From positions 1 through 42,776 of the IMG/VR virus record IMGVR_UViG_3300031963_000315: a stretch of DNA of 42,776 nt; one strand, 5' to 3'. Shown one piece after another: positions 1,185-39,424 of the stretch; position 1 is the first letter of the stretch, and each line of letters opens with the position of its first letter. The notes beneath the pieces are model-generated. The model saw only the letters and a program-made list of their open reading frames with translations. It did no database searches and was not told where the DNA came from. Made by a program: the position numbers and the translations under genes. Source of the DNA: a virus.

Positions 1185-2293
1185 CAGTATTTCGGGTCCT
1201 GTGTTTCAAGGCGGCGGTGATACGCTTCGTTGCGTCCGCTCCACCACCAGTAAGCGCCCATGCCAGCAAGGCAGATGAACCCGAACAGCGCGACACGGAT
1301 CATGGTATCAGTGCCAATGTTCTCAAGGCTGCGCCCGATGATTTCGATTTGCGTTGCAAGGCCCGCGAGGACTGTGCCGATGGTGCTGATGGCGACGGTT
1401 TCGCGTCCACGGGATGCGCGGTTAACGGCCTTGCCAGTGCGGGAATCTTCAATCTTCTTGGGCGGCAGCGACGGGTCAACGGCGGGTTTCAGTTCCGGCA
1501 GGGGTTCGGCTTTGACTTCCACAACAGGCGCGGGGGCTTTCGGCGGGTCAGGCTGTTGCGGGATGGGTGGCATAGCGGGCAGCAGCGGATACTTGCGGGC
1601 AACGGCGAGCGTAGACGTGAACGGGGTCTGCTCAATAATCACGTCCTGCCAGCGGTTCTTGGCGGCGTTCCATTCCAGCCGTGTGCGGATCGATAGCGCG
1701 CCGGGCTTGGTGGCCTCGCTGTGGTCATAGCCAAGCAGGAGGCAGCCCTGTGCGTGGCCACGGCGCAGCAATCCCGTCAGCCTGCGGAAATACTGGCAGG
1801 GCTGGCCATCGGGGCCAATCCAGCGGTTCGTGTTGCCGATCCGCTGATAGGGCGCTTCGATCCGATAACCGTTCCTGATCTCGCGCGGCGAAGGCCCCGA
1901 GCTTGTCGCGCCGGTCCACATGGCGAACGCAGCGGCGGCGTTTTCAAACCGGCCCGCGTTCAGTTCCCTGACGACGCTGGACCCAGCCGCAGCCGAGCCC
2001 CCTGCATTGTAAGCAAACGAGGCCAGCGCATCGACTTCATGCTGGCGCAGCGGTACTCTTACGGCACGCAACACAGGCGCCAGTTCGACCCCCAGCGCGT
2101 GCGCCCTAAGCTGCTTGGCATATTCCAGCGTACACGTCTCGCCCGCCTCTACGGGCCGCCCGTCCAGATGGTAGGTAGATCCCCATCCCAGCTCGTACTT
2201 GCCGCCCTCGCACAGCTCTGCAACGAGGCGGGGTTTTGAGCCTTCGAACTCCGTGACAAGGTCAACGGCCCTAGTGCTTACGGTATAGGTCAT
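1184..2293 (-). CDS. Endolysin, GH24 lysozyme-like, with C-terminal membrane anchor
   Basis: The first about 150 residues look like a phage GH24 muramidase, which cuts the MurNAc-GlcNAc bond of peptidoglycan. Features are the Glu of Phe-Glu-Gly (E17, expected catalytic acid), the Gly-Trp-Gly turn near residue 37, and a downstream Ala-Phe-Ala-Tyr-Asn-Ala-Gly stretch. The Thr normally placed just before that turn appears to be Glu34, so the classic Glu/Asp/Thr triad is not fully visible. A middle domain of about 80 residues is unknown, then comes a Pro-rich linker (about 240-275). The C-terminus has a weakly hydrophobic segment (about 298-320) and a clear membrane segment (331-351). At 369 residues it is about twice the usual length. 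It precedes the spanins and overlaps the Hsp70 gene by four bases. Confidence 0.8.
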   Translation of the reverse strand: MTYTVSTRAVDLVTEFEGSKPRLVAELCEGGKYELGWGSTYHLDGRPVEAGETCTLEYAKQLRAHALGVELAPVLRAVRVPLRQHEVDALASFAYNAGGSAAAGSSVVRELNAGRFENAAAAFAMWTGATSSGPSPREIRNGYRIEAPYQRIGNTNRWIGPDGQPCQYFRRLTGLLRRGHAQGCLLLGYDHSEATKPGALSIRTRLEWNAAKNRWQDVIIEQTPFTSTLAVARKYPLLPAMPPIPQQPDPPKAPAPVVEVKAEPLPELKPAVDPSLPPKKIEDSRTGKAVNRASRGRETVAISTIGTVLAGLATQIEIIGRSLENIGTDTMIRVALFGFICLAGMGAYWWWSGRNEAYHRRLETQDPKY

Positions 2294-3762
2294 GCTGCTT
2301 TGTCCTTCAGCCCAATGATAACTTCATCGCCCGCCATCACGGACAGTTGCCCGCCTGCGTCCACGTCCAGCGTCACAGTGACGGTCAGTTCGCCCGCTGG
2401 CAGGGCTTCCGCGCCGATCTGGTAGAACACCAGCCGCTCGTTATCCTCTGCCGCCACAGCCTCGCCCTGCGTGATTTCAAGGCCAAGGATGGCCTGCCCG
2501 TCCTTGACGGTGCAAAGCTCAGCGGTCTTGCGAACCGGGTATTTCTCCCCGCGCTTGATGACCGGCACGAACTCGCCGCCGAACCGGGTGATGCCGATCG
2601 ATGCGGGCGCAATGCGTTCCAGCACGGACTTGGCCTTGCGGCCTTCGATCTCTGCCGCCTGGATTGCAGCGCCAAGCGCAACGGCATGTTCCGGCCTCGG
2701 TCCCGTCACCAGCTTGTCCGGCCCGAAGAACCGCGACAGCACGGAATGAATGAGCGGCATTCTTGACTGGCCACCGACGAGAAGGACGTGTTCGATTTCC
2801 TTCTTGGAAAGGTCCGCCTGCTTCAGCGCTTCGGTGAGGCACGTAACGGTGCTGGCAACGAGGTCTTTCGTCATGGCCTCCAGCTCGGAGCGCTTTAACT
2901 TTTGTTTCAGCGTGAGCAGGCCCTTGTCATCGGTCAGCACGAGTTGCGGCAGGTGAATGATTGTTTCGGTCACGTCCGAAAGGCGCCGCTTGGCTTCCTC
3001 GGCTTCCTTGACCAGCCGGACCATGCAATGCGGCTTGCCGCGAAGGTCAATGCCATGCTCGGCAAAGAACTTGTCCGCGCAGTCTTCCACGATCCGCGCA
3101 TCGAAGTCCGCGCCGCCAAGGAACCCGATGCCGTTCATGCCAGCCGGGCTTGTGACGCCGTTCTTCATGTGCAGGACGGTCACGTCGAACGTGCCGCCGC
3201 CAAGGTCGTAAATCACCACGCGGGTAAACTTGTCGTCCAGCGCGGTCACGCCGTAAGCCACAGCCGCCGCGTAGGGCTCTTCAAACAGTTCGACACGCTC
3301 AAGGCCCACGAGGCGCGCAGCTTCCCGCACAGCGTCTTTCTGGGCCTGCGTGCAGTCAACTGGCACCGCAATCACCGCGCCGCTTGGCTTGACCTTCAGA
3401 TGGCTTTCAGCGGCAATGAGCAGCGATTTCAGGATTTCCGCCACCAGCGTAGGGCCGGAGATCAACCCATCCCGCCCGCGCCACCAGACCTTGCCGTCAG
3501 GGCCTTCCGCAAGCTGGAAGTGCGAGTGCTCCTGTTCGTCAAACTCGCGGCCTAGGTATCGCTTGATATTGCGGAACGTGAAGTCAGGGTTTTCATCCGT
3601 CTGCGTCAGGGCATAGCGGCCTGTGACGAACCCCTTATCCGTTTGCGCGACGACCGAAGGCAGCGTGTCTTGCTGGCCTGCGATTTCGATCATGGTTGTC
3701 CCGCGCGGGGTCCAGACCGCCACGCCGCTGTTCGTCGTGCCGAAGTCGATACCGATCATCAT
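2290..3762 (-). CDS. Phage-encoded Hsp70 (DnaK-like) chaperone lacking the lid
   Basis: The 490-residue product carries a complete Hsp70 nucleotide-binding domain: phosphate-1 motif DFGTTNS (6-12), phosphate-2 YDLGGGTFDV (185-194), LGGADFD (215-221), adenosine motif LLVGGQSRMPLI (327-338) and EHAVALGAAIQA (358-369). Residues about 385-475 align with the beta substrate-binding domain, including SIGI (388-391) and LDVDAGGQLSV (465-475). The alpha-helical lid of DnaK (about 640 residues) is absent, and the hydrophobic interdomain linker reads SVLERI instead of DVLLLD. Two adjacent ATGs (3762, 3759) overlap the upstream stop. It lies in the late operon between a membrane-protein pair and the endolysin. 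The ATPase family is certain; the client and role are unknown. No DnaJ or GrpE gene is visible, so host co-chaperones or the neighbouring proteins may serve. Confidence 0.95.
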   Translation of the reverse strand: MMIGIDFGTTNSGVAVWTPRGTTMIEIAGQQDTLPSVVAQTDKGFVTGRYALTQTDENPDFTFRNIKRYLGREFDEQEHSHFQLAEGPDGKVWWRGRDGLISGPTLVAEILKSLLIAAESHLKVKPSGAVIAVPVDCTQAQKDAVREAARLVGLERVELFEEPYAAAVAYGVTALDDKFTRVVIYDLGGGTFDVTVLHMKNGVTSPAGMNGIGFLGGADFDARIVEDCADKFFAEHGIDLRGKPHCMVRLVKEAEEAKRRLSDVTETIIHLPQLVLTDDKGLLTLKQKLKRSELEAMTKDLVASTVTCLTEALKQADLSKKEIEHVLLVGGQSRMPLIHSVLSRFFGPDKLVTGPRPEHAVALGAAIQAAEIEGRKAKSVLERIAPASIGITRFGGEFVPVIKRGEKYPVRKTAELCTVKDGQAILGLEITQGEAVAAEDNERLVFYQIGAEALPAGELTVTVTLDVDAGGQLSVMAGDEVIIGLKDKAA

Positions 3763-4806: not shown

Positions 4807-5187
4807 TTAGCCGCCTACCCAGCCCATCGCGCGCAGCATTGTGTAACCGATGGTCACAAGCGCCGCTGTGCCCGCACTGATGAAGGTGATCCGCACACGG
4901 TTCTCGATTTCAGTGTCCCGCTTCTCGCGGTCAGCGTGTTTCTTGTCGATCTCGGCAGTGATGCGCTTTTCCATCTCCGCAATTTCAGCGCGGCGTTCGG
5001 TGCGCTGGTTTTCAGCGAGGTCGCTCATTGCGGACTTAATGTCGCTGCGCCACTCTTGCCGGCTCACGTTGACCACCTCATTCATCCGCTCGTGACTGAC
5101 GAGGCCGTCCACCTTGGCTTCTATCCGCGACTGCCCCGCGATCAGCTCCATCAGGACGCCTGACAAGTCCTTGCCCAGCCCGTCCAT
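4807..5187 (-). CDS. Coiled-coil protein with C-terminal membrane anchor
   Basis: The 126-residue product is a highly charged helix from about residue 40 to 98 (repeated Glu, Lys, Arg with heptad-like spacing), followed by a membrane segment at about 99-120. The N-terminal 35 residues resemble the short helix that starts many phage coiled-coil proteins. It sits between the multi-pass membrane gene and an unknown 178-residue gene, with gaps of 10 and 2 bases. Topology suggests a tail-anchored protein with its coil in the cytoplasm. A role as partner of the neighbouring membrane protein or in lysis timing is possible but unproven. Confidence 0.7.
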   Translation of the reverse strand: MDGLGKDLSGVLMELIAGQSRIEAKVDGLVSHERMNEVVNVSRQEWRSDIKSAMSDLAENQRTERRAEIAEMEKRITAEIDKKHADREKRDTEIENRVRITFISAGTAALVTIGYTMLRAMGWVGG

Positions 5188-5907: not shown

Positions 5908-7733
5908 GCCGTTGTTCCGTTCAGGATCAGGCCCATTGTCGTCAGTTCGGCCAGCAGGCTTGCAAGCGCCGCATTGCCGCCGCGCGATCCGGTGATGGTT
6001 GGCCGGGCAACCGGCGTGGTGTTGTAAAAGCCCAGCGTGTTCACACCGACACCGATGACCCTGTTTCCAGAGCTGCCCCGAATATCAATCAGGCCCGTTC
6101 CCTTCGGAGCAAGCTGGACCGTGATGTTTGTATCAGAGCCTTGCGTCTCGATCCGCAGGGGTTGGCCGGTCGTGTTCGCAATGACACGCAGGTAATTGGC
6201 CAGCGTGCCCGCTGCGCCTTCAACCTGCATACCGATTTCGCCCTGGAACGTGTGGCGGATCGCATCGTTTGTGAACTCAAGCCCCACACGGTTCGCCGTC
6301 GCGCTGACTGACGAGAAGATCGTAGCGGCCTGTCCGTCTGACGCCTGCCACTCAAAAACGTGGCCCTTGGCCATGCTGATGGCAACGCCGGTGCCCGTGA
6401 CGCCATCGGTGCCTTCAATGGCTGTGGCGCCGATCACGATACCCTTGTTGAAAGTCTCTGCGTTGCGAGCAATCAGGATGGCGCAAGTGCTGGGGTGTGT
6501 CGGAGCACCGAGCGCCGAATCTCCCCCGCCCGCGAAATAGAAGCCAATGGTCGAGCCGCCCGGAAACACCGAATACGGAGTGTTGACCACATCCGTGCTG
6601 CCCCGGTTCTTGACCGCGATTTCAGCCGCATAAACCGTGCTGCCATCTGGCCCGCGAATGCCTTCAAAGTATCCGGCCCACGTGCCTGTCCCATCTACCA
6701 CGTCCGAGAAGCCAACGAACGAGGCGCCGATTGGAACGAGGTAGGTGTAGTCAAGCCACGTCAGCGTGGCCGTTCCATCCACAACGCTGCCGCTGGTATG
6801 CGTCGGGGCAACCGTGCTGGTCGTGCCCGCCACCGTGACGGTGTAGAGCCTTCCGGCATATCCAACGATGGCGTTCAGAGAATAGGCCGTGGAAGCCTGC
6901 CAGACCACCGCGCCGTTGATCGTATAGCGATCCGATGCTCGGGACGCGCCCAGCACACCGATTGCCCCGCGATCCGACACAGCCACGATATGTGACGCGC
7001 GTTCATGGTAGAACCCGGCGCCAGCATCCTGAAGCCATGTATCGCCATCAGTCGCTTGGGAACTGCCCGCAAAATCCTGCGCCGCCTTGGAAATCAGCAA
7101 GCGTTGCGGAACGCGGAAGATCGAAGGGTCATCATCCTTGTCCGTCAGGAACCCGCGCACCGCAGACGCGGCAAAGTTGGCGGGAGTCGTGAACGTTGCA
7201 AACGGAGAGGGGTAAAAGTCGCCCGTGACCTTTGCACTTAGCGTGTAGGAGCCGGGCGGGATGACAACATCCCCAGCCGCCGCCGCTGATGTGAACGCTG
7301 TAGCGTTTGAGCCATAGTCCAGCACGTTTTGAACGCCAAACAATGCGCCGCTGAACACAAGCTCGCCAGTATCAACGCCCGTGCCTCGGGTTATCTTCCG
7401 GTTTTCAAGGCCAAGCCCGGCAAGCGCTGTCAGGGTAGCGTCTACGGGCTGGGAGCCGGTTGCGGAGGGGCTTTCGGAAAAGCTGCGATACGTGATCGCA
7501 TCGTTGGCAGACTTGATCTCAACGTCATAGTTGACCGTTGGGCTGAGGTACGTATTGAACCAGCCAGCCGCGTCTGCCACAACGGGGTTGGCCGCCGGAA
7601 CGGTCAGCGCGCTGTCCGTGTACGTCGTGGCGTTTGTGTTGGTGCCCTTGATCTTGAAATAGATCTTGGCGCCGGACACAGGCGTGCCAGACGAGTTCTC
7701 AACCTGATCACCAAACGGAATCCCGCTTGCCAT
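5904..7733 (-). CDS. Tail fibre or tailspike protein
   Basis: The 609-residue product begins with a short domain (about 1-100) resembling the particle-binding N-terminus of podovirus tailspikes: VSGAKIYFKIKGTNT, then a Thr/Ala segment ending in VVADAAGWF. The rest is rich in Gly, Ala, Thr and Asn with beta-strand character, as expected for a trimeric receptor-binding fibre. The last 45 residues contain a helical stretch that may trimerise. A strong AGGAGG ribosome site precedes the start. It follows the gp10-like gene and a small Ig-like protein, the expected tail position. The receptor is unknown and no lyase or esterase motif is evident. Confidence 0.82.
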   Translation of the reverse strand: MASGIPFGDQVENSSGTPVSGAKIYFKIKGTNTNATTYTDSALTVPAANPVVADAAGWFNTYLSPTVNYDVEIKSANDAITYRSFSESPSATGSQPVDATLTALAGLGLENRKITRGTGVDTGELVFSGALFGVQNVLDYGSNATAFTSAAAAGDVVIPPGSYTLSAKVTGDFYPSPFATFTTPANFAASAVRGFLTDKDDDPSIFRVPQRLLISKAAQDFAGSSQATDGDTWLQDAGAGFYHERASHIVAVSDRGAIGVLGASRASDRYTINGAVVWQASTAYSLNAIVGYAGRLYTVTVAGTTSTVAPTHTSGSVVDGTATLTWLDYTYLVPIGASFVGFSDVVDGTGTWAGYFEGIRGPDGSTVYAAEIAVKNRGSTDVVNTPYSVFPGGSTIGFYFAGGGDSALGAPTHPSTCAILIARNAETFNKGIVIGATAIEGTDGVTGTGVAISMAKGHVFEWQASDGQAATIFSSVSATANRVGLEFTNDAIRHTFQGEIGMQVEGAAGTLANYLRVIANTTGQPLRIETQGSDTNITVQLAPKGTGLIDIRGSSGNRVIGVGVNTLGFYNTTPVARPTITGSRGGNAALASLLAELTTMGLILNGTTA

Positions 7734-29896: not shown

Positions 29897-30078
29897 CAGC
29901 GTTGACCTTTCGTGCGTGGCCGGTTCATCACGCGGCCAACGTCTTCAGCGGGTTGGATTTGGGCGAAGCGGCGGGGCTGGCGTTCGCCGCAGCGGGAACA
30001 CCACGTGCGGCCAAATTCGTCGGTTTCATCGTAGCGGTGCCAGTTGAACTGGCAGCGGAAGGAGTGCGGTCTCACCAT
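29896..30078 (-). CDS. Small zinc-finger-like protein
   Basis: The 60-residue product begins MVRPHSFRCQFNWHRYDETDE and continues WCSRCGERQPRRF. It has Cys9, His14 and a Cys-x2-Cys pair near 27-30, which could bind zinc, followed by a basic tail. It overlaps the following gene by one base (TGATG) and the preceding one by seven. Small phage zinc-finger proteins of this type are frequent and unassigned. Confidence 0.58.
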   Translation of the reverse strand: MVRPHSFRCQFNWHRYDETDEFGRTWCSRCGERQPRRFAQIQPAEDVGRVMNRPRTKGQR

Positions 30079-30689
30079 GGGTTTCCACCTCCAACGGGCA
30101 GAACGCCTTCCGATCTAAACTCGCCCCACAGGCTTGTGAAATCAGGCCGCTCTTCAGTCGGCTTGCAAAACGCCGGGTCGTTCCACAGCACGCGGTTGTT
30201 CGGAAACGCGCCTATGTTGCCGTCTGCCAGCTCGAACAGGTGCAGGTGCTTGTGCTGGTCTGCGTTCTCGGCAAGGCTGCTTTCGGCAAAGTCGATGGTG
30301 AACCAGTAGGTTGCATCCATCCTGGCTGGCAGGATCACGGCGCGCATGTGCCGGTGGAACTCGAACTCGTGAACGCCAAAGCTGGACGAAAACGTGTCCC
30401 ATGGTTGGATCATGTTCATGTCCACGGGCTCGCCCTTGGCGCGGGGTTCGTCGGGGATGCGATGGCAAAACGCTTCAATCGGGGCCATGAACCCAGCGCC
30501 TGCGCCTTTGCCTTCCATGATCATGCACTGGAACCAGAGGCTTTCGCCTTCGATCACACGCAGGCCGTGGATAGCGCAGACGAGGTATTCCCCGTGCCCG
30601 TCTTCGCGGGAGCGGGTATACTCGCGGCGGATGTATCCGTATTTCCACGGGCGGCAGGAGCCGATGATGTAGTTTGCGGCGGGGTTCAT
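30072..30689 (-). CDS. Hypothetical early/middle protein
   Basis: The 205-residue protein has mixed alpha/beta composition with many Trp, Phe and His. Notable stretches are YIIGSCRPWKYGYIRREY at the start, FGVHEFEFHRHMRAVILPAR in the middle and HKHLHLFELADG later. No catalytic motif is recognised. It overlaps both neighbours by a few bases, so it is part of the coupled early leftward operon. Function unknown. Confidence 0.6.
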   Translation of the reverse strand: MNPAANYIIGSCRPWKYGYIRREYTRSREDGHGEYLVCAIHGLRVIEGESLWFQCMIMEGKGAGAGFMAPIEAFCHRIPDEPRAKGEPVDMNMIQPWDTFSSSFGVHEFEFHRHMRAVILPARMDATYWFTIDFAESSLAENADQHKHLHLFELADGNIGAFPNNRVLWNDPAFCKPTEERPDFTSLWGEFRSEGVLPVGGGNPW

Positions 30690-30990: not shown

Positions 30991-31328
30991 ATCGGCACTC
31001 CCGGCTCAGTGCTGACCGAGGCTTCCATGCACTTCATGGCAAACGGCGCGCTCTTGCTTTCGGCTCCGTGCCACGGGTATCCAGCGCCTATCGCCATTGC
31101 GTTGGCAACGAAGCTGGCGACCGGGATGGCGAGGTCGATTGGCACATCCAGAGCAAAGCGCCGGTCAAGCAGGAAAGTGATCGTGTCGCCGTCCCTGCGA
31201 CATTCAAGGTTCGGGATCAGTCGCCCGTCCACCATGACTTCGTGATGCGGGAACCGGGGCGGCAACATCATGCGCTCTAGCGCGCTTTCCAGTTGGTCCT
31301 TGTACGGCGTGTGTATTGTGGCGGTCAT
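30987..31328 (-). CDS. Hypothetical small phage protein
   Basis: The 113-residue protein contains a helical N-terminus (DQLESALERMMLPP), a central beta segment (ITFLLDRRFALDVPIDLAIPV) and an Ala-rich helix (ASFVANAMAIGAGYPW). No motif is recognised. Start and stop both overlap neighbouring genes by four bases, so it is part of the coupled early operon with the methyltransferase upstream. Confidence 0.55.
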   Translation of the reverse strand: MTATIHTPYKDQLESALERMMLPPRFPHHEVMVDGRLIPNLECRRDGDTITFLLDRRFALDVPIDLAIPVASFVANAMAIGAGYPWHGAESKSAPFAMKCMEASVSTEPGVPI

Positions 31329-32050
31329 GTCTTCCTCGCGTGTGTTGTTGTTACGGTTTGGGTTGCGTCAAAGAGCGAAGGCGCCGGTTCGGGCTTTGCC
31401 TTCGGTTCGTCAAAGAGGCGCGGTTGGCGCCATGCTTCCTCGATGCGGCGGCAAGCAATGTCGAAGTAACCGGGGTCCAGCTCTATGCCGATGAACTTCC
31501 GGCCAAGCTGTAGGGCGGCTACGCCTGTGGTGCCGGAGCCCATGAAAGGGTCGCAGATTGTCTTTGCATCGGGAAGCTGAAGAATGCTCCAGCGCATCAC
31601 CTCCAGCGGCTTCTGTGTCGGGTGCTGAGCGCCTTCTACAAGCAAGGCCACGCGGTTCTGCGTGAAGATGCGGAGCGCGCCGTCAAGGGTGGTATAGGCA
31701 AGCTCGCCGTCCGATTGATTGATCCGCTGGCCTTTGTCCCAGACAAGCCATTTGCCCTTCGGAGGCAGCAAATCTGCAAAGTAGTTGCCGCCCCAGATGA
31801 CCGCCTCGTCAGCCATGTCTAGCATTGCAGCAAAAATCGGCGCTTCAGGGCGGCTTGCATCCCAGCCCTTGAAAGCGTATTCTTTGCGTCCGCCGTTGCC
31901 GCCTGTTGTGCGTTTCTGCCCGTCCCGCCCAATCCCATAAGGCGGATCAGTCACGACAGCATCCACCCGCCCCAGCGTAGGCAGAACCTCAAGGCAATCG
32001 CCTAACCAAAGTTCCGCATCGCCAATTGTCACTTTTTTCGGACTGGTCAT
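31325..32050 (-). CDS. DNA (adenine-N6 or cytosine-N4) methyltransferase
   Basis: The 241-residue protein has motif IV DPPYG (35-39), then HPTQKP (143-148), then the AdoMet motif DPFMGSGTTG (167-176). This order, catalytic motif before AdoMet motif, is the beta class. DPPY favours adenine-N6 methylation. The start at 32050 overlaps the GIY-YIG gene stop by four bases. It is shorter than CcrM-type enzymes (about 350) and lacks their C-terminal domain, so it is not an obvious GANTC enzyme. It may protect phage DNA from host restriction or mark sites for regulation. No matching restriction gene is seen apart from the adjacent GIY-YIG nuclease. Confidence 0.9.
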   Translation of the reverse strand: MTSPKKVTIGDAELWLGDCLEVLPTLGRVDAVVTDPPYGIGRDGQKRTTGGNGGRKEYAFKGWDASRPEAPIFAAMLDMADEAVIWGGNYFADLLPPKGKWLVWDKGQRINQSDGELAYTTLDGALRIFTQNRVALLVEGAQHPTQKPLEVMRWSILQLPDAKTICDPFMGSGTTGVAALQLGRKFIGIELDPGYFDIACRRIEEAWRQPRLFDEPKAKPEPAPSLFDATQTVTTTHARKT

Positions 32051-32565
32051 TGGAACAGCCCCTTGCCTTTGTGGCGCGTGTTCGCGCAGCGCCGAGAACA
32101 GAAGCGATTGTGCCCAGCCTGGATGTCCCGCTTTTTGCGCCAGAACTGTTGATCGCAAACCTCACACGCAAAGTGTGCGCCCGTCCGAAGTTTGGCTGCT
32201 ATTTTCGCGCGGTGTTCAGGCGTAGGCGAGTGACCAGAAAGCCCCTCGCCCCCGTCTGTCAAATTCAACAGCGGGGCGCCAACGTTCCGGTAATGCTGTA
32301 TCCAGTAACGCTCCCGAGCGGCCCAATCTTGCCCGTCAGGAACAAATTCCACGGCTTCAATGACACTTGCAGGCTGCTTTGCCAGCCAACGACACACGGG
32401 AAGCGAGCGCCCTTTTTTGGCCTCTCGCAAGTGCTGCTTATGGCGATCGCACATATAACGGGCTGTTTTTCCAACGTACCTTACAGGGCCTCCGATCCGG
32501 CCGCGCAGCAGGTAAATCGTGGTGCCCTTGATGGGCGTGGCGTCTCCGATGACTTCGGTCCTCAT
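32047..32565 (-). CDS. GIY-YIG endonuclease with zinc-finger C-terminus
   Basis: The 172-residue protein shows the GIY-YIG fold: IYLLRG (about 17-22) and VRYVGKT (28-34) for the two strands, then HLREAKKG and the conserved Glu of RERYWIQHYR (about 84-93). A NUMOD3-like SPTPEHRAKIA segment (about 113-123) and a zinc finger (CEVC at about 134-137, FCSRRC near 154-159) follow, features of phage homing endonucleases. It is fused into the operon by four-base overlaps on both sides and precedes the methyltransferase. Either a homing enzyme that has become fixed, or a nuclease paired with the methylase. Confidence 0.85.
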   Translation of the reverse strand: MRTEVIGDATPIKGTTIYLLRGRIGGPVRYVGKTARYMCDRHKQHLREAKKGRSLPVCRWLAKQPASVIEAVEFVPDGQDWAARERYWIQHYRNVGAPLLNLTDGGEGLSGHSPTPEHRAKIAAKLRTGAHFACEVCDQQFWRKKRDIQAGHNRFCSRRCANTRHKGKGLFQ

Positions 32566-33432: not shown

Positions 33433-34289
33433 GCGGCGGCTCCCAGCTTGGATTGCTCAGCGACCCATGTGCGGTATCGATCGAGGATCAGCTCAGGCAC
33501 GCGGCAGCCTTCGTGGCCCGGCTGCGGGCCAGCATAGGCGGGCCACGATTGCGTCTCGTGCCAGGTCATCAGCAGGCGGCGCCACTGGTCGTCGCCCATG
33601 TCGATCGCCGCCGCCTCCGGCTCTGCGGACGGCAGCCAGCCTTCCCACATGCCGGTGTTGAGGAACTTGTAGATCGCAGGCGCGTACTGCCCGCCGTCCC
33701 GAGTGCTGTCCGGATGGCTGTAGCAAGCCCGCACCGCTGCCAAGAGGCTTTCAGGGGAGGTCTTGGCGATGATCGTCTTGACTACCTTCGGCAAGGTTTT
33801 CTTCGGGGCCATCCGAGCTTTTGCTTTCGGGATGATCCTCAGAATTTCTTCGACCACATGCGCGCTAGAGAGAGGTTTACCTCTCTCTACTGGTTCTGGT
33901 TCTGGTTGCTTGAGCATTGGGGTAGCATTGCTAGGCGCAACATCGTTTGTTTTCAGCGCCTTAGCTTTTCCGCCTTTTGCGCCTGCGTTGCGGCGACGTT
34001 CGTGAGCCTCTTTTGCGGCTAGCCATTCTACAGTCAGCCTAGCATTGCTAAGACGCCCGTCAGCCTCTTTGAAAAACTCGCCAATGACAGCTTCGACAAC
34101 CGACTGGTCAGCCTCGGTCAGCGCTCTCATGCGCCGGTAAACCCAATTGCGATCCGCTGGGATTGAACAGCCCGGCGTCATCCATGTAAGGCGCAAGAGG
34201 CGATTATAGGCGCCATCCTCTGCCAGCGTGAGGTGAGAGGTCTTGGCCTCAAAGTCAGTGGGGAACATGGGGAAATATGGCAGGCTCAT
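33429..34289 (-). CDS. DUF1376 phage replication protein
   Basis: The 286-residue protein starts YFPMFPTDFEAKTSHLTLAE and continues GAYNRLLRLTW, the signature of DUF1376, found in phage replication modules next to helicase genes. It has a basic Lys/Arg patch (about 96-112), then a linker, then a C-terminal domain. By context it is probably the origin-binding or helicase-loading protein, a role filled by lambda O/P or DnaD-like proteins. It lies immediately downstream of the DnaB-type helicase (four-base overlap). Confidence 0.8.
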   Translation of the reverse strand: MSLPYFPMFPTDFEAKTSHLTLAEDGAYNRLLRLTWMTPGCSIPADRNWVYRRMRALTEADQSVVEAVIGEFFKEADGRLSNARLTVEWLAAKEAHERRRNAGAKGGKAKALKTNDVAPSNATPMLKQPEPEPVERGKPLSSAHVVEEILRIIPKAKARMAPKKTLPKVVKTIIAKTSPESLLAAVRACYSHPDSTRDGGQYAPAIYKFLNTGMWEGWLPSAEPEAAAIDMGDDQWRRLLMTWHETQSWPAYAGPQPGHEGCRVPELILDRYRTWVAEQSKLGAAA

Positions 34290-35698
34290 ACAGCGCGCTC
34301 CCAGATCGGGGTAACGTTGGAATTGGGCGTCCAGAACGTGTTGCAGGCGATGTCGCAGGCGAGATGCACCTTGCCGAGCGGGCCGTTACGGTTCTTGGCA
34401 AAAATCACGTCTGCGCCGTTCTTGGTGCGCATCCATCGATCGCTGGCCTTCTCGTACTCATCAGGCGTCTGGGCAGCGTCCATAGCCTGCCGGGCGAAGT
34501 GTGACTCCCGGTGAAGGAACATCACCGCGTTGGCGTCCTGCTCAATCTCGCCTGACTGGCGCAGGTCATGGATCTTCGGCGGACGCTCGTCCTTCACGCT
34601 TTCGCGGTTGACGTGATGAAGCGTCAGAAGGGCCACGTCATGCCGCTTGGCAAACGCCAGGAGGGCTTTCGAGATGCGTCCCGTCTCGTCTGTCCGATCG
34701 CCGCGGTGTTCGGGCGTCAGGTTGCCAAGGTTGTCCACGATGATCAGCCGCGGGCGATCGATGCCGCGGCGGCGGCAAACACCTTCCCATGTCCGGTACT
34801 GCTCACTGAGCTGCGAGACCTTCAGCCCGCCGCGGTCATCAAGGAACAGGCGGCGGTGCGTCTCTTCCTCAAACACGCGGCGCAGGCGGATCGCGCTCTG
34901 CTCATCATTGCAGCCCGCGGAAACGTCATTGTAGCGAAGGTTGCGGCTAGCCGCCTTGTCATACGAGAGGAAGCACCCTCCCCGCATGGCAATCTCATGC
35001 CGCGGCATTTCAAGGGCAAAGTAACCGACAGTCGTTCCAGAGCGCACGGCATTGAGTGCAATGCAGATGGACAGGGCCGACTTGCCCACAGAAGTTGCCG
35101 CGGCGAGGATGGTGTTTTGTCCTGGGCTGAGACCGCCGCCTAGCTGGCTGTCGATCGCGTCAAACCCGGTCCTGATCCGGCGAGCCGCCATCTTTCCCAG
35201 CCCGTCTAGGGCTTCAAGCCCCGTCTCGCTGAAATCATGGGCATCGCCGTTGCCAATCATGGCCGATCGCAAATCATCAAGCTGGCCGTCGATCGACGCC
35301 ATAACCGCGGAGGGCTCAACATAGCCCTCGCCGTCTCCCAGCGCCGCGGCGCGCATCTCGTCTGCCACGCGGATCATGTCGCGGCGGCGGCAGGTATCAG
35401 ACACCACCTTCGCCTGCGTCCGGCACTCAAAGGGCGTCAGGCAGTAGTCCAGCAAGCCTTCAATCGTGTGCTTATGATCCGTCAGCACGGGCGAGCCTGC
35501 CAGCTCTTCAAACACCGTCCCGCAATCAACCGCCATGTTGCGAGCCATCAGGCGGCGCACAGCGGCCCAGATGGTCTGATGCAGCGGGTGATAGAAGTCG
35601 CGCTCTTGGAGGTGTTCGCAAGCCTGCCAGCAGGCATTGTCGAACAGCACAGAGCCAATGACGGCAATTTCCGCGGAATGGGAATATGGCGTGCTCAT
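34286..35698 (-). CDS. DnaB-type replicative helicase
   Basis: The 470-residue protein has an N-terminal DnaB-like helical domain (about 1-110: AEIAVIGSVLFDN, FYHPLHQTIWAAV) and a RecA-like ATPase domain with Walker A AAATSVGKSA (199-208), GYFALEMPRHEIA (about 226-238), Walker B RLIIVDNLGNL and a following HHVNRE. Hexameric DnaB helicases unwind DNA at the replication fork. I see no primase domain, so host DnaG is probably used. The gene is coupled to neighbours by four-base overlaps. Confidence 0.92.
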   Translation of the reverse strand: MSTPYSHSAEIAVIGSVLFDNACWQACEHLQERDFYHPLHQTIWAAVRRLMARNMAVDCGTVFEELAGSPVLTDHKHTIEGLLDYCLTPFECRTQAKVVSDTCRRRDMIRVADEMRAAALGDGEGYVEPSAVMASIDGQLDDLRSAMIGNGDAHDFSETGLEALDGLGKMAARRIRTGFDAIDSQLGGGLSPGQNTILAAATSVGKSALSICIALNAVRSGTTVGYFALEMPRHEIAMRGGCFLSYDKAASRNLRYNDVSAGCNDEQSAIRLRRVFEEETHRRLFLDDRGGLKVSQLSEQYRTWEGVCRRRGIDRPRLIIVDNLGNLTPEHRGDRTDETGRISKALLAFAKRHDVALLTLHHVNRESVKDERPPKIHDLRQSGEIEQDANAVMFLHRESHFARQAMDAAQTPDEYEKASDRWMRTKNGADVIFAKNRNGPLGKVHLACDIACNTFWTPNSNVTPIWERAV

Positions 35699-35886
35699 TG
35701 TCTCGACTCCAGAAACAGGCGCTTCACCAGCGCAAAGTCCTCGGTCTTACCCATCGGAAACCAGCGGTCCTTGAGCACCTTGAGGAACGCCGCATCCTGT
35801 GGTGACAGCGCGTCTTCAGCGTCCTTGCGGGCCTGCGTCCGCGCCACGGCTTCGGCAAATTCGTCAGCGTTCGTTGCCTTGGTCAT
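35695..35886 (-). CDS. Small helical protein upstream of the helicase
   Basis: The 63-residue protein is helical and charged (DEFAEAVARTQARKDAEDAL, then AAFLKVLKDRWF). The start at 35886 overlaps the GcrA-like stop by four bases; the longer frame lies within that gene. It overlaps the helicase start by four bases. It may be a helicase accessory factor; no family is recognised. Confidence 0.55.
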   Translation of the reverse strand: MTKATNADEFAEAVARTQARKDAEDALSPQDAAFLKVLKDRWFPMGKTEDFALVKRLFLESRQ

Positions 35887-36341
35887 GCCATCACCCCCGA
35901 CGACTGAGACACCGAGCGGCTTGTGTGATGCGGGCAATAGCGTCCGCCCTCGGCGTGCGCGCCGCAGAACTTGTGCGGCAGGGCGTCTGTGACAGGCCAG
36001 CGGCAGGATGTGCGCGACAGCGCGTCAAACAGGATGCCTTCAACAGGCGCCGGCTTAGGCGGATCAATGCGCTTGACCGGCGCGGTCGTGCGCTGGCGGG
36101 CTTCCTTGCGCTTCAGGACAAGGCCAGGAGACACCGCGTTGGCTACGGCCTTTTCCGAACGGCTGGCGGAATGACGGCGCCCGCCAAGGGCGATCGCATT
36201 GCGGTGGCAGATCCCGATGATCGTGTTGCGGGTCACGCCAAAGCGCGCCGCGATTTCCCGCCCGCTCTGGCCTGAGTTGGCCAGTGTGCGGATGTAATCA
36301 ATGCTGTCGGCGCTCCAGCGCGCTGTGTATTCTCTTGGCAT
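35883..36341 (-). CDS. GcrA-family cell cycle regulator
   Basis: The 152-residue protein follows the GcrA pattern: N-terminal Trp and helix-turn-helix (about 9-45: SGREIAARFGVTRNTIIGICHR), a basic Pro-rich linker (about 60-100), and a C-terminal Cys/His domain with SCRWPVTD (about 110-117), FCGA and YCPHH. Alphaproteobacterial GcrA binds sigma-70 and promoters carrying GANTC sites methylated by CcrM. A phage copy could redirect host cell-cycle transcription or read methylation state at phage promoters. It lies between a winged-helix gene and the small gene before the helicase. Confidence 0.88.
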   Translation of the reverse strand: MPREYTARWSADSIDYIRTLANSGQSGREIAARFGVTRNTIIGICHRNAIALGGRRHSASRSEKAVANAVSPGLVLKRKEARQRTTAPVKRIDPPKPAPVEGILFDALSRTSCRWPVTDALPHKFCGAHAEGGRYCPHHTSRSVSQSSGVMA

Positions 36342-36676: not shown

Positions 36677-36783
36677 CACGCCAGCCCCACCATCAGCAGG
36701 AGCGCGCACCAGAACGCGATGGACAGCATCAGGCCCCATGCGAGGCCGCGAACGGGGGCGAGTTGATCGTCTTGGGGGATCAT
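36676..36783 (-). CDS. Tiny membrane protein (35 aa)
   Basis: ATG 36783 to TGA 36676 encodes 35 residues with a polar N-terminus (about 1-12) and one membrane segment (about 15-34, LAWGLMLSIAFWCALLLMVG). Its start overlaps the stop of the Cro-like gene by four bases (ATGA) and its stop shares one base with the next start (TGATG). This exact coupling on both sides supports it as a real gene. It would be among the first proteins made after induction. Function unknown. Confidence 0.55.
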   Translation of the reverse strand: MIPQDDQLAPVRGLAWGLMLSIAFWCALLLMVGLA

Positions 36784-37004
36784 GCGGCGCCTGCCTTGCG
36801 CTTCGTGCGCCGGTCGAGGCCAAGCAGGCTGATGGCAGTCACCTGCCCGCCTGTTGCAGTCTCAATGCGTCTGGCGAATTTGACCGAGGGCGTTCGCCGC
36901 CCGTCGCAAATGTCCGCTAGATAGCCCTTGGATGTGTTAAGCTGCCCCGCGAGCCGTGTGAGCGCGCCGTGGCCTTGTTCAGAGAGGAAGTCTGCTAGGG
37001 TCAT
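36780..37004 (-). CDS. Cro-like XRE/YdaS-type regulator
   Basis: The 74-residue protein has one helix-turn-helix (about 12-50: GALTRLAGQLNTSKGYLADICDGRRTPSVKFARRIETATGG). It is the first gene of the leftward operon and divergent from the XRE repressor at 37097, the Cro position of a lambdoid-type switch. No Shine-Dalgarno lies before its ATG, and a TTGACA -35 (minus strand, 37034-37039) would place the transcript start at or next to the ATG, so its mRNA may be leaderless. It probably binds the operators at 37013 and 37047. Confidence 0.8.
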   Translation of the reverse strand: MTLADFLSEQGHGALTRLAGQLNTSKGYLADICDGRRTPSVKFARRIETATGGQVTAISLLGLDRRTKRKAGAA

Positions 37005-37012
37005 GCAACATG

Positions 37013-37029
37013 GTTCGCAAAATGCGAAC
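37013..37029. promoter_or_regulatory. Operator O1 (17-bp palindrome)
   Basis: The sequence GTTCGCAAAATGCGAAC is a perfect inverted repeat of seven bases around a three-base centre. It lies nine bases upstream of the Cro-like ATG (minus strand), between the predicted -35 and the start, so binding would block leftward transcription. Confidence 0.75.
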
Positions 37030-37033
37030 TGCT

Positions 37034-37039
37034 TGTCAA
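37034..37039 (-). promoter_or_regulatory. Predicted -35 box of the leftward promoter
   Basis: On the minus strand these bases read TTGACA, a perfect sigma-70 -35 hexamer. No good -10 is seen at 17 bases; GAACCA occupies that place and overlaps operator O1. On the plus strand the same site reads TTGTCA (37033-37038), so a rightward promoter may share it. Confidence 0.45.
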
Positions 37040-37046
37040 CAACGGA

Positions 37047-37063
37047 GTTCGCTATGTGCGTGT
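37047..37063. promoter_or_regulatory. Operator O2 (degenerate copy)
   Basis: The sequence GTTCGCTATGTGCGTGT keeps the GTTCGC half and GCG at the same spacing as O1 but has lost the last three bases of the right half. It lies 34 bp from O1 (start to start) and 33 bases before the repressor start at 37097. It could be a weaker site for the same regulator. Confidence 0.5.
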
Positions 37064-37096
37064 CTACTTGCCGCAGTGCTTGTGACAGAACGGGCC

Positions 37097-37408
37097 ATGA
37101 GCAGCACCCGCCCCTTCTTCCTTAAACAGTGGCGCGAATATCGCGGACTGAGCCAGCAACGACTGGCTGAACGCCTTGACACCTCAAAGGGATACATTTC
37201 GGACCTGGAACGTGGCAAGCGCCGCTACAACCAAGATATGCTGGAATTATTGGCCGACGCGCTGAATTGTGAGCCAGCAGACATATTGATGCGCGACCCC
37301 AGCGATCCGTCCGGGATATGGTCAATCTGGGACGCCATTCCCGCCATTGATCGCCCCCGAATCGTCGCGGTCATCAAAGCCATGATCGGCAACAAAACGG
37401 GCAGCTAA
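37097..37408 (+). CDS. XRE-family repressor, CI-like position
   Basis: The 103-residue protein has a clear helix-turn-helix (about 8-62: LKQWREYRGLSQQRLAERLDTSKGYISDLERGKRRYNQDMLELLADAL) and a short C-terminal part (about 70-103) but no peptidase domain of the LexA/CI type. It diverges from the Cro-like gene and lies among GTTCGC operators, so it is the likely lysogeny repressor or a partner of the second XRE protein. No strong ribosome site precedes the ATG. Without a peptidase domain, induction must work differently from lambda. Confidence 0.8.
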   Translation: MSSTRPFFLKQWREYRGLSQQRLAERLDTSKGYISDLERGKRRYNQDMLELLADALNCEPADILMRDPSDPSGIWSIWDAIPAIDRPRIVAVIKAMIGNKTGS

Positions 37409-37416
37409 AGAAAAAA

Positions 37417-37433
37417 GTTCGCAATAAGCGTTA
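37417..37433. promoter_or_regulatory. Operator O3 (degenerate copy)
   Basis: The sequence GTTCGCAATAAGCGTTA keeps the GTTCGC half and GCG with the same five-base spacing as O1 and O4, but the right half ends TTA. It lies just after the first XRE gene and before the second. Confidence 0.5.
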
Positions 37434-37451
37434 CATTCTGCTTGCCTATGG

Positions 37452-37468
37452 GTTCGCGATATGCGAAC
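37452..37468. promoter_or_regulatory. Operator O4 (17-bp palindrome)
   Basis: The sequence GTTCGCGATATGCGAAC is an inverted repeat with six-base arms GTTCGC and GCGAAC around five bases. It lies 25 bases upstream of the second XRE gene start (37494), so this gene probably has its own regulated promoter. O3 and O4 are 35 bp apart (start to start), almost the same as O1 and O2. Confidence 0.72.
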
Positions 37469-37493: not shown

Positions 37494-37826
37494 ATGCCCA
37501 AGACAGCCACAACCCGAGAGCCCGGCTCGCGCTCGCCTACAGAGATCGACGTGTTTGTCGGTGAGCGCATCCGCGCCATCCGGGCAGACCGCCACCTGTC
37601 AATGCAGGAAGTCGCTTCGGCGCTCGGCCTGAGCCATCAGCAGCTTCAGAAATACGAGGTCGGCACGAACCGTCTGAGTGCCGGGATGCTTTATCAGGTT
37701 GCGGCGTATTTCGAGGTCAGCGTTGCGAGCCTGTTCCCTGACGCGCCGAAAGACGCGGCCGCCGAAGCCCTGAGGGCGAAGCGCAAGCTGGACGCGATCC
37801 GCCGCATTCTTCTGGAGGCCGTGTGA
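37494..37826 (+). CDS. Second XRE-family regulator (alphaproteobacterial type)
   Basis: The start at 37494 follows a GGAGAG ribosome site; the longer frame begins within operator O4. The 110-residue protein has the arrangement DVFVGERIRAIRADRHLSMQEVASALGLSHQQLQKYEVGTNRLS (about 21-64), typical of a widespread alphaproteobacterial XRE family that recognises its sites with the QQLQKYE helix. The C-terminus is a Lys/Ala/Arg-rich helix. It may control the rightward arm, including the ERF gene and excisionase. Confidence 0.82.
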   Translation: MPKTATTREPGSRSPTEIDVFVGERIRAIRADRHLSMQEVASALGLSHQQLQKYEVGTNRLSAGMLYQVAAYFEVSVASLFPDAPKDAAAEALRAKRKLDAIRRILLEAV

Positions 37827-38110
37827 TGCTCAACGCCTTCCACGAAACCGACTCCCGCAACTCCTACGCATGGGGCCAGCGCCTCGCCAACGCGATTGAG
37901 CTTGCCCTGTTCGCAGCGGGCCAAGTCCGCAAGCTGAGCGCAACGGATGCCTGCGCCATTGCAGAGGCGATCATCGAACACGGCGCGGGTGAGGATGCTC
38001 ACCTTGATGGCGTGTTGCTCTATGCTGGCGCGATAGACGGGTCGCCGCTTTATCGCGCTGCACATGGCGAGATGATCAAGCAGCGCTCGGCGCAGCGGGT
38101 GGCGGCATGA
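37826..38110 (+). CDS. Hypothetical small helical protein
   Basis: The 94-residue protein is mostly helical (ANAIELALFAAGQVRKLSATDACAIAEAIIEHGAG). The ATG at 37826 shares one base with the upstream stop and follows a GGAGG site; GTG 37823 is an alternative. No family is recognised. Context is the rightward early operon before the ERF gene. Confidence 0.6.
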   Translation: MLNAFHETDSRNSYAWGQRLANAIELALFAAGQVRKLSATDACAIAEAIIEHGAGEDAHLDGVLLYAGAIDGSPLYRAAHGEMIKQRSAQRVAA

Positions 38111-38388: not shown

Positions 38389-38603
38389 ACCGCCAGATCT
38401 CCCACCACATCGACCAGATCGAAGCCCGCCTTGCGGCAGCCGAAGCTCCGTACAAAGCCGAAGAACGCGAAATCGAGCAGGCAATCGACGCGCTGAAGGC
38501 CCGCCTTCGCGCCGTGTACGAGGCGCGCTGCGAAGTCGCTCGCCCGTTCGAAATCGAGCTTGACGCATTTTACGATCAACAGAACCAAGAGGAGGCCGCG
38601 TGA
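38385..38603 (+). CDS. Small coiled-coil protein
   Basis: The 72-residue protein is a charged helix (about 5-65: IDQIEARLAAAEAPYKAEEREIEQAIDALKARLRAVYEA), likely a coiled coil. Its stop overlaps the ERF start by one base (TGATG) after a GAGGAGG site. Small coiled-coil genes often precede phage single-strand annealing proteins; no function is established. Confidence 0.6.
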   Translation: MNRQISHHIDQIEARLAAAEAPYKAEEREIEQAIDALKARLRAVYEARCEVARPFEIELDAFYDQQNQEEAA

Positions 38604-39424
38604 TGGCTGACAATCTCGCAACTATCGAACCCCGTAGCAATGCGGTCGCAGCGCCAGGAATGGGATCGGCTGACGCCTTCATTGCCATGATCGAACGCGC
38701 CGCAGTCAATCCGGCTGTGGACGTGGAGAAGATCGAACGCCTCTACACGCTTCACGAGCGGATGCAGGCCAAGGCTGCGGAGACGGCTTTCTATGCCGCA
38801 ATGGCGCAGCTTCAGCCCCAATTGCCGGTCGTAGAGCATACCAAAAAGATCAGCTATGAGAAAGGCGGGCAGACGATTGTCAAAGGCACCTACACGCCTT
38901 GGGAAGACATCGATGAACTGATCCGCCCGCTCTACACGGCGCTCGGGTTCTCGCTGTCCTTTGACATTGAGCAGACCGCCGAAGGCATCAGCGTCGAGAC
39001 GATCATCATGCACAGCGAGGGGCATTCCGTCCGGCGCGCAAAGATGCGGCTTCCGCCCGATCCGTCCGGCAACAAGGGCGCGGCTCAGGCTGTCGGATCG
39101 GCTGTCAGCTATGCTAAGCGGTACTCGGCTTGCGCTGCCCTCAACATCACCACGCGAGGCGCCACAGGCGAGAGCGAGGACGATGATGGGCAGACGGCTC
39201 ACACGCCCATGAACGCCTCTCAGGCAAAGCAACATGGCCTCTGGGAGCGCCTTGAAAGCGAACTGAAGACCGAGTGCGGCACACAGATCGAAGCCGACGC
39301 ATGGTGGGAAAAGGTTCGCAGCTTCCGGGAAGCCTACCGCGATATGCCGAACGAGTGGAAGCGCATGTTTCGGGACGAAGTGTTTGCGCCGTACCGTGAA
39401 CGTCTGAAGCCGGGCGAAATCTGA
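38603..39424 (+). CDS. ERF-family single-strand annealing protein
   Basis: The 273-residue protein matches the ERF family of phage recombinases. Its motifs are AETAFYAAMAQLQPQLP (about 56-72), YTPWEDIDELIRPLYTALGFSLSF (about 93-116), and GAAQAVGSAVSYAKRYSACAALNI (about 157-180). ERF proteins anneal complementary single strands and help circularise or recombine phage DNA, in P22 for example. The C-terminal 90 residues are a separate, more variable domain. The start at 38603 is preceded by GAGGAGG. No dedicated exonuclease is visible nearby. Confidence 0.92.
   Translation: MADNLATIEPRSNAVAAPGMGSADAFIAMIERAAVNPAVDVEKIERLYTLHERMQAKAAETAFYAAMAQLQPQLPVVEHTKKISYEKGGQTIVKGTYTPWEDIDELIRPLYTALGFSLSFDIEQTAEGISVETIIMHSEGHSVRRAKMRLPPDPSGNKGAAQAVGSAVSYAKRYSACAALNITTRGATGESEDDDGQTAHTPMNASQAKQHGLWERLESELKTECGTQIEADAWWEKVRSFREAYRDMPNEWKRMFRDEVFAPYRERLKPGEI

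Follow-up and report, generated by a model that had tools for sequence, protein, structure and literature searches.

Genes and candidate operators at the locus

The window, by which we mean the whole 42,776-base stretch of viral DNA analysed here (IMG/VR record IMGVR_UViG_3300031963_000315), contains a short regulatory region around XRE1, a gene for a CI-like repressor (Table 1). Leftward of this region lie, in order, a Cro-like gene, a weakly matching gene, the GcrA-like and DnaB-like helicase genes and a primosomal-type gene; on the right side, XRE1 is followed by XRE2, a small conserved gene, the gene for an ERF annealing protein and an HNH gene. The leftward early region also includes an N6/N4 DNA methylase gene (31325-32158, minus strand) in addition to the GcrA-like gene, and the two may represent a version, carried by the phage, of the GcrA/methylase circuit of alphaproteobacteria.

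The Cro-like protein matches the transcriptional repressor family phrog_35 (E 9.4e-07), and the nearest solved chains, 8co2 and 8c7k, are named phage Cro. In Pfam, XRE1 shows only helix-turn-helix (HTH) families, with no match to S24, the self-cleaving domain expected of a lambda-type repressor; an earlier reading of this DNA made from the letters alone (the sequence-only reading) was therefore right to describe a repressor devoid of a LexA-type peptidase. The AlphaFold model of XRE1 (pLDDT 86) has its recognition helix at residues 31-38 and two extra C-terminal helices at 74-80 and 83-98. Foldseek matches include SinR/SinI, P22 c2, DdrO and the phi106 repressor/AimX complex.

Table 1. Positions of genes, candidate operators and promoter elements around the regulatory region of the window
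Feature	Position	Strand	Details
DnaB-like helicase gene, left early operon	34286-35698	-	DnaB_C, E 6e-43
GcrA-like gene, left early operon	35883-36341	-	Pfam GcrA, E 2.5e-15
Left early operon as a whole	34286-36341	-	GcrA-like and DnaB-like genes
Cro-like gene, 74-aa HTH protein	36780-37004	-	Divergent from XRE1; recognition helix TSKGYLADIC
Strong candidate operator, left	37013-37029		GTTCGCAAAATGCGAAC; inside putative leftward promoter PL; conserved in relative L079
-35-like TTGACA, putative leftward promoter	37034-37039	-	Starts 18 bp from strong operator centre
Weak candidate operator, left	37047-37063		GTTCGCTATGTGCGTGT; left half intact, right half altered to GCGTGT
XRE1, 103-aa CI-like repressor	37097-37408	+	Recognition helix TSKGYISDLE
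Weak candidate operator, right	37417-37433		GTTCGCAATAAGCGTTA; right half altered to GCGTTA
-35-like TTGCCT, putative rightward promoter	37442-37447	+	Starts 18 bp from strong operator centre
Strong candidate operator, right	37452-37468		GTTCGCGATATGCGAAC; inside putative rightward promoter
XRE2, 110-aa HTH protein	37494-37826	+	Helix SHQQLQKYE, unlike that of XRE1
Small conserved gene	37823-38110	+	Homologue lies directly after the operators in L079, as first gene of the right operon
ERF-type single-strand annealing protein	38600-39424	+	phrog_155, E 3e-40; PF04404; right early operon

The 17-bp palindrome GTTCGC-N5-GCGAAC occurs in two copies in the whole 42,776-base record, against 0.03 expected under a first-order Markov model. 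The shorter GTTCGCN5GCG gives six strand-specific matches over the whole window against 1.7 expected, a number reached by one of 100 shuffles, and all six are confined to four sites. The sequence-only reading had listed these four as two strong and two degenerate copies with 34 or 35 bp between starts. All of them lie exactly where it placed them, with start-to-start spacings of 34 bp in the left pair and 35 bp in the right, and the genome-wide search that it proposed returns no surplus copies in the window. Its statement that each pair precedes an XRE gene also stands, with the qualification that the left pair precedes the divergent Cro-like gene as well. The strong sites are 439 bp apart and flank XRE1.

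The weak sites have three mismatches in 12 positions, and 34 such sites are seen in the window against about 36 expected, so that the mismatch count does not set them apart. We accept them as operators because of their position and their conservation in relatives, not for their sequence alone.

Conservation of layout and promoter geometry

In the relative L079, whose Cro-like protein is 82% identical to that of the window, four sites (GTTCGCAAAGTGCGAAC, GTTCGCCATGTGCGTGA, TAACGCTATTAGCGAAC and GTTCGCGTTGTGCGAAC) reproduce the layout with spacings of 35 and 34 bp. The left weak site has counterparts in L079 (GTTCGCCATGTGCGTGA) and in a second relative, L017 (TTTCGCTATGTGCGTGA), and the right weak site of L079 has the same altered half as in the window, but inverted. 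Since the altered weak half-sites (GCGTG, GCGTTA) are kept in L079, they look like selected features. L017 (helix GYYSDIE) carries TTCGCACATAGCGAA and TTCGCTATGTGCGTGA 35 bp apart, and the right-hand operator pair is absent. A third relative, L003, has an XRE1 that is 55% identical and a different motif, TGTGC-N7-GCACA, in the same layout around XRE1 (sites at 4904, 4938, 5318 and 5354, spaced 34 and 36 bp). Downstream of its switch (6050-6700), L003 encodes a pentapeptide-repeat-like protein with long GANLGGADL repeats.

Scans with an XRE1 alignment yielded 65 viral and six genome loci. Once the window and four annotated phages were added, 52 loci were nonredundant at 75% identity, and the statistics treat any loci that fall below this protein identity as independent. 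GTCAA, the -35 element of the putative leftward promoter, occurs upstream of XRE1 in 32 of the 52 loci, typically at about 62 bp, and dyad symmetry peaks 14-15 bp away from it (z 4.4 and 3.9). Operator centres were placed by eye in four loci that have no GTCAA anchor. When the strong dyad was compared with the sequence downstream of it over 112 lags, in 26 loci whose dyads represent many different motifs, the sole similarity peak fell at lag 34 (0.50 versus 0.25, z 5.9). On the right-hand side, a search for the left consensus past the XRE1 stop put the partner at lag 35 (z 5.3). A matched downstream operator was found in 14 of 29 loci at p <=0.1 (combined Fisher p 5.5e-5) and is missing in about half of these relatives. 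A best-dyad search without anchoring separated only some loci from shuffles. The phage phiLM21 was considered as a test case and dropped, its 227-aa repressor being apparently of a different kind.

In 14 loci selected for carrying matched sites (both strong sites), the position profile of TTGACA-like hexamers peaks at -18, with z 4.1 leftward and 3.4 rightward. With a -35-like hexamer 18 bp from its centre, each strong operator would therefore fill the spacer of an outward promoter, and the weak operators are placed upstream of the -35-like hexamers. The mirrored strong-weak/weak-strong order then arises because the two promoters face away from XRE1. The -10 hexamers, GAACCA and GAACGT, fit the E. 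coli consensus poorly, and a consensus promoter scan returned no promoter at the operator sites; activity of the two putative promoters is predicted.

Some phages with an 'SQLE' helix, PBC5 and RHph_I1_23 for example, carry TTTCAGTCA direct repeats in place of clean dyads. The simple dyad model does not fit such loci (L004, 3870-3925; L007, 3860-3910; L056, 4885-4930), which look like a separate subgroup, possibly with a different binding mode.

Candidate binders of the operators

Across 37 loci, the recognition helices of the Cro-like protein and XRE1 share an identity of 0.43 within a locus versus 0.17 between loci (z 9.7, p<=5e-5); the helix positions were masked in the step that placed the helix on each Cro-like sequence. 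In the same 37 loci, the two proteins show no excess similarity outside the recognition helix (z -1.7). The XRE1 helix furthermore covaries with the operator half-site more than overall relatedness would explain (partial Mantel r 0.43, p 2e-4), and its similarity bears no relation to that in the remainder of the protein (r 0.006). The two window helices use largely distinct codons, agreeing at 20 of 33 bases, and this speaks against recent gene conversion.

XRE1 and the leftward Cro-like protein are thus the likely binders, as L079 keeps all four sites but has no XRE2, the next gene being the homologue of the small conserved gene of the window. The sequence-only reading had proposed to try three regulators at the sites; on the same evidence, XRE2 no longer belongs among the likely ones and is probably an accessory gene regulated from the putative right promoter. 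In phiKO2, the binding of Cro is confined to OR3 and differs from that of the CB repressor, so that Cro and the prophage repressor occupy different sites (PMC4997575), whereas the two proteins of the window share recognition residues. This precedent counts against simply assuming that the Cro-like protein and XRE1 share sites.

A putative genetic switch and its alternatives

Taking as directly established the sites, their spacing and conservation, the shared helix residues and the covariation of helix and half-site, we infer binding, promoter activity, cooperativity, autoregulation and the direction of control as follows. Very probably, the region is a mirror-image version of the lambda-type genetic switch, in which XRE1 and the Cro-like protein would compete for four operators. 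Dimers of XRE1 would occupy all four. The left strong operator would lie in the -35/-10 spacer of a promoter serving the Cro-like, GcrA-like and DnaB helicase genes, and the right one in that of a promoter serving XRE2, the small conserved gene and ERF; with strong operators within both outward early promoters, XRE1 would shut both early operons. The weak operators would sit 34 or 35 bp farther upstream, and the left one, which is also in the region before XRE1, would probably set the level of XRE1 itself. The fixed spacing suggests that neighbouring dimers are in contact. The Cro-like protein, with the same recognition residues, would compete for the sites of XRE1 and favour the lytic programme.

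Self-cleavage through an S24 domain is ruled out as the induction route. Given that absence, an antirepressor that targets the C-terminal helices of XRE1 is a reasonable guess, and its docking there would be the most likely route. SinR/SinI and the phi106 repressor/AimX pair offer a parallel: they are peptidase-less, are controlled by a small antirepressor, and combine an HTH with C-terminal helices as XRE1 does. The Foldseek matches of XRE1 to 1b0n and 9sf2 (E 3.6e-3 to 4.3e-3) mainly cover the HTH and, unlike in SinR/SinI, no SinI-like antirepressor carrying the C-terminal sequence of XRE1 was found in the window.

The mirrored order had earlier been taken to indicate cooperative binding or looping across the repressor gene. 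The cooperative part would fit the 34/35-bp pairing. Looping, in which XRE1 dimers on both pairs would join across the XRE1 gene and be essential for tight repression, seems unlikely. Two similar pairs do flank XRE1 with strong sites only a few hundred base pairs apart, and lambda CI joins OL to OR over about 2.3 kb (PMC5880393), but the left-to-right distances range from 409 to 529 bp and are not helically phased (Rayleigh p ~0.94, n=14), so that the conservation can be explained without looping; moreover, about half of the relatives have no right pair, and promoter polarity already accounts for the order. Somewhat less likely again is that the phage has lost lysogeny or never had it, and that the same proteins and sites form a timing circuit which serves only to shut early genes during lytic growth. 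Searches for tyrosine or serine integrases (PF00589, PF07508) found none in the window record, nor in L003, which would suit such a circuit. The window record may, however, be incomplete, an extrachromosomal prophage is possible, and the weak-site detail is still conserved. Among 37 records searched (the window and 36 others carrying the cassette), 26 have a tyrosine integrase (PF00589), including that of L017, and the relatives L009 and L010 are located in bacterial genome contigs; the cassette therefore belongs to temperate phages generally. What had been called a lysogeny switch is upheld as a switch-type region that may serve lysogeny in this particular phage.

Two further readings have little to recommend them. 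That XRE2 is a main binder, with the right pair as its autoregulatory operator, is very improbable: the pair directly precedes XRE2, but L003 retains the layout with another gene in that place, the XRE2 helix in the translated sequence is unlike that of XRE1, and we rejected this reading on the operators kept without XRE2 in L079 and L003. Chance repeats or transcript hairpins (terminators) can practically be dismissed. The GC-rich dyads could make 6-bp stems, but they are followed by no T-run and no terminator-like site was found; chance repeats are opposed by the tiny number of exact sites expected, and both ideas are refuted by a layout and spacing that are conserved while motif sequences change. 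Position, conservation and spacing thus support the earlier view that the sites are operators of a switch-type control region and not chance repeats.

In lambda, the repressor gene and cro diverge around shared operators, and past the repressor gene a second operator group controls the other early operon. The layout of the window matches this plan: both left sites lie between the divergent Cro-like (minus strand) and XRE1 (plus strand) genes, the second group (37417, 37452) sits beyond XRE1 at the other putative early promoter, and in both systems replication genes are on the cro side and recombination genes opposite, with the repressor between. Lambda has three operators per group whereas the window has two, left and right alike, at 34/35-bp spacing; also unlike lambda, the window has a repressor of only 103 aa without a peptidase, and no integrase was found in its record. 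The system would therefore work like a lambda-type switch by its layout, lacking the S24 domain and the third operator.

The closest known layout is that of Rhizobium phage 16-3 (DQ500118), whose four annotated operators flank the repressor gene in pairs: downstream of c lie OL1/OL2 and PL, and upstream of it OR1/OR2 together with Pr and Pc, which diverge. The window likewise has operator pairs on both sides. The 16-3 repressor C, by contrast, has 263 aa and an S24 peptidase domain, and no repressor homology is apparent, BLASTP of C against XRE1 giving E 0.26 with undetectable similarity beyond the HTH; the 16-3 operators (12-14 bp, spaced 17 and 26 bp) are also unlike those of the window. phiKO2 and N15 resemble the window in having the repressor between the OR and OL groups in their CB-Cro systems (PMC4997575).

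We moderately favour a broader view, in which the locus is a modular immunity cassette, mainly of alphaproteobacterial phages, whose repressor helix, Cro helix and operator change together against a constant promoter/operator geometry, with the strong site within the promoter spacer and the weak one 34/35 bp from it. If so, operators, and hence immunity groups, could be read from sequence alone for many uncharacterised phages. Sequence divergence makes operators hard to locate in such phages; a 2025 search of phiLM21-like prophages, for example, detected neither the lambda nor the 16-3 operator sequences (PMC12429752). Fixed geometry and shared helix would enable de novo operator prediction for the XRE1-type repressor family. 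The cassette would also predict which phages are heteroimmune and supply a natural collection of matched repressor/Cro/operator sets for the DNA-recognition code.

Elsewhere in the window, a full-length Hsp70-like protein (2290-3762, minus strand; PF00012, E 8.6e-110; also phrog_22485, of unknown function) is encoded next to the endolysin gene, an unusual cargo for a phage of such size, and the protein of 30072-30689 (minus strand) matches a PHROG annotated as ferredoxin (phrog_3704, E 1.4e-24).
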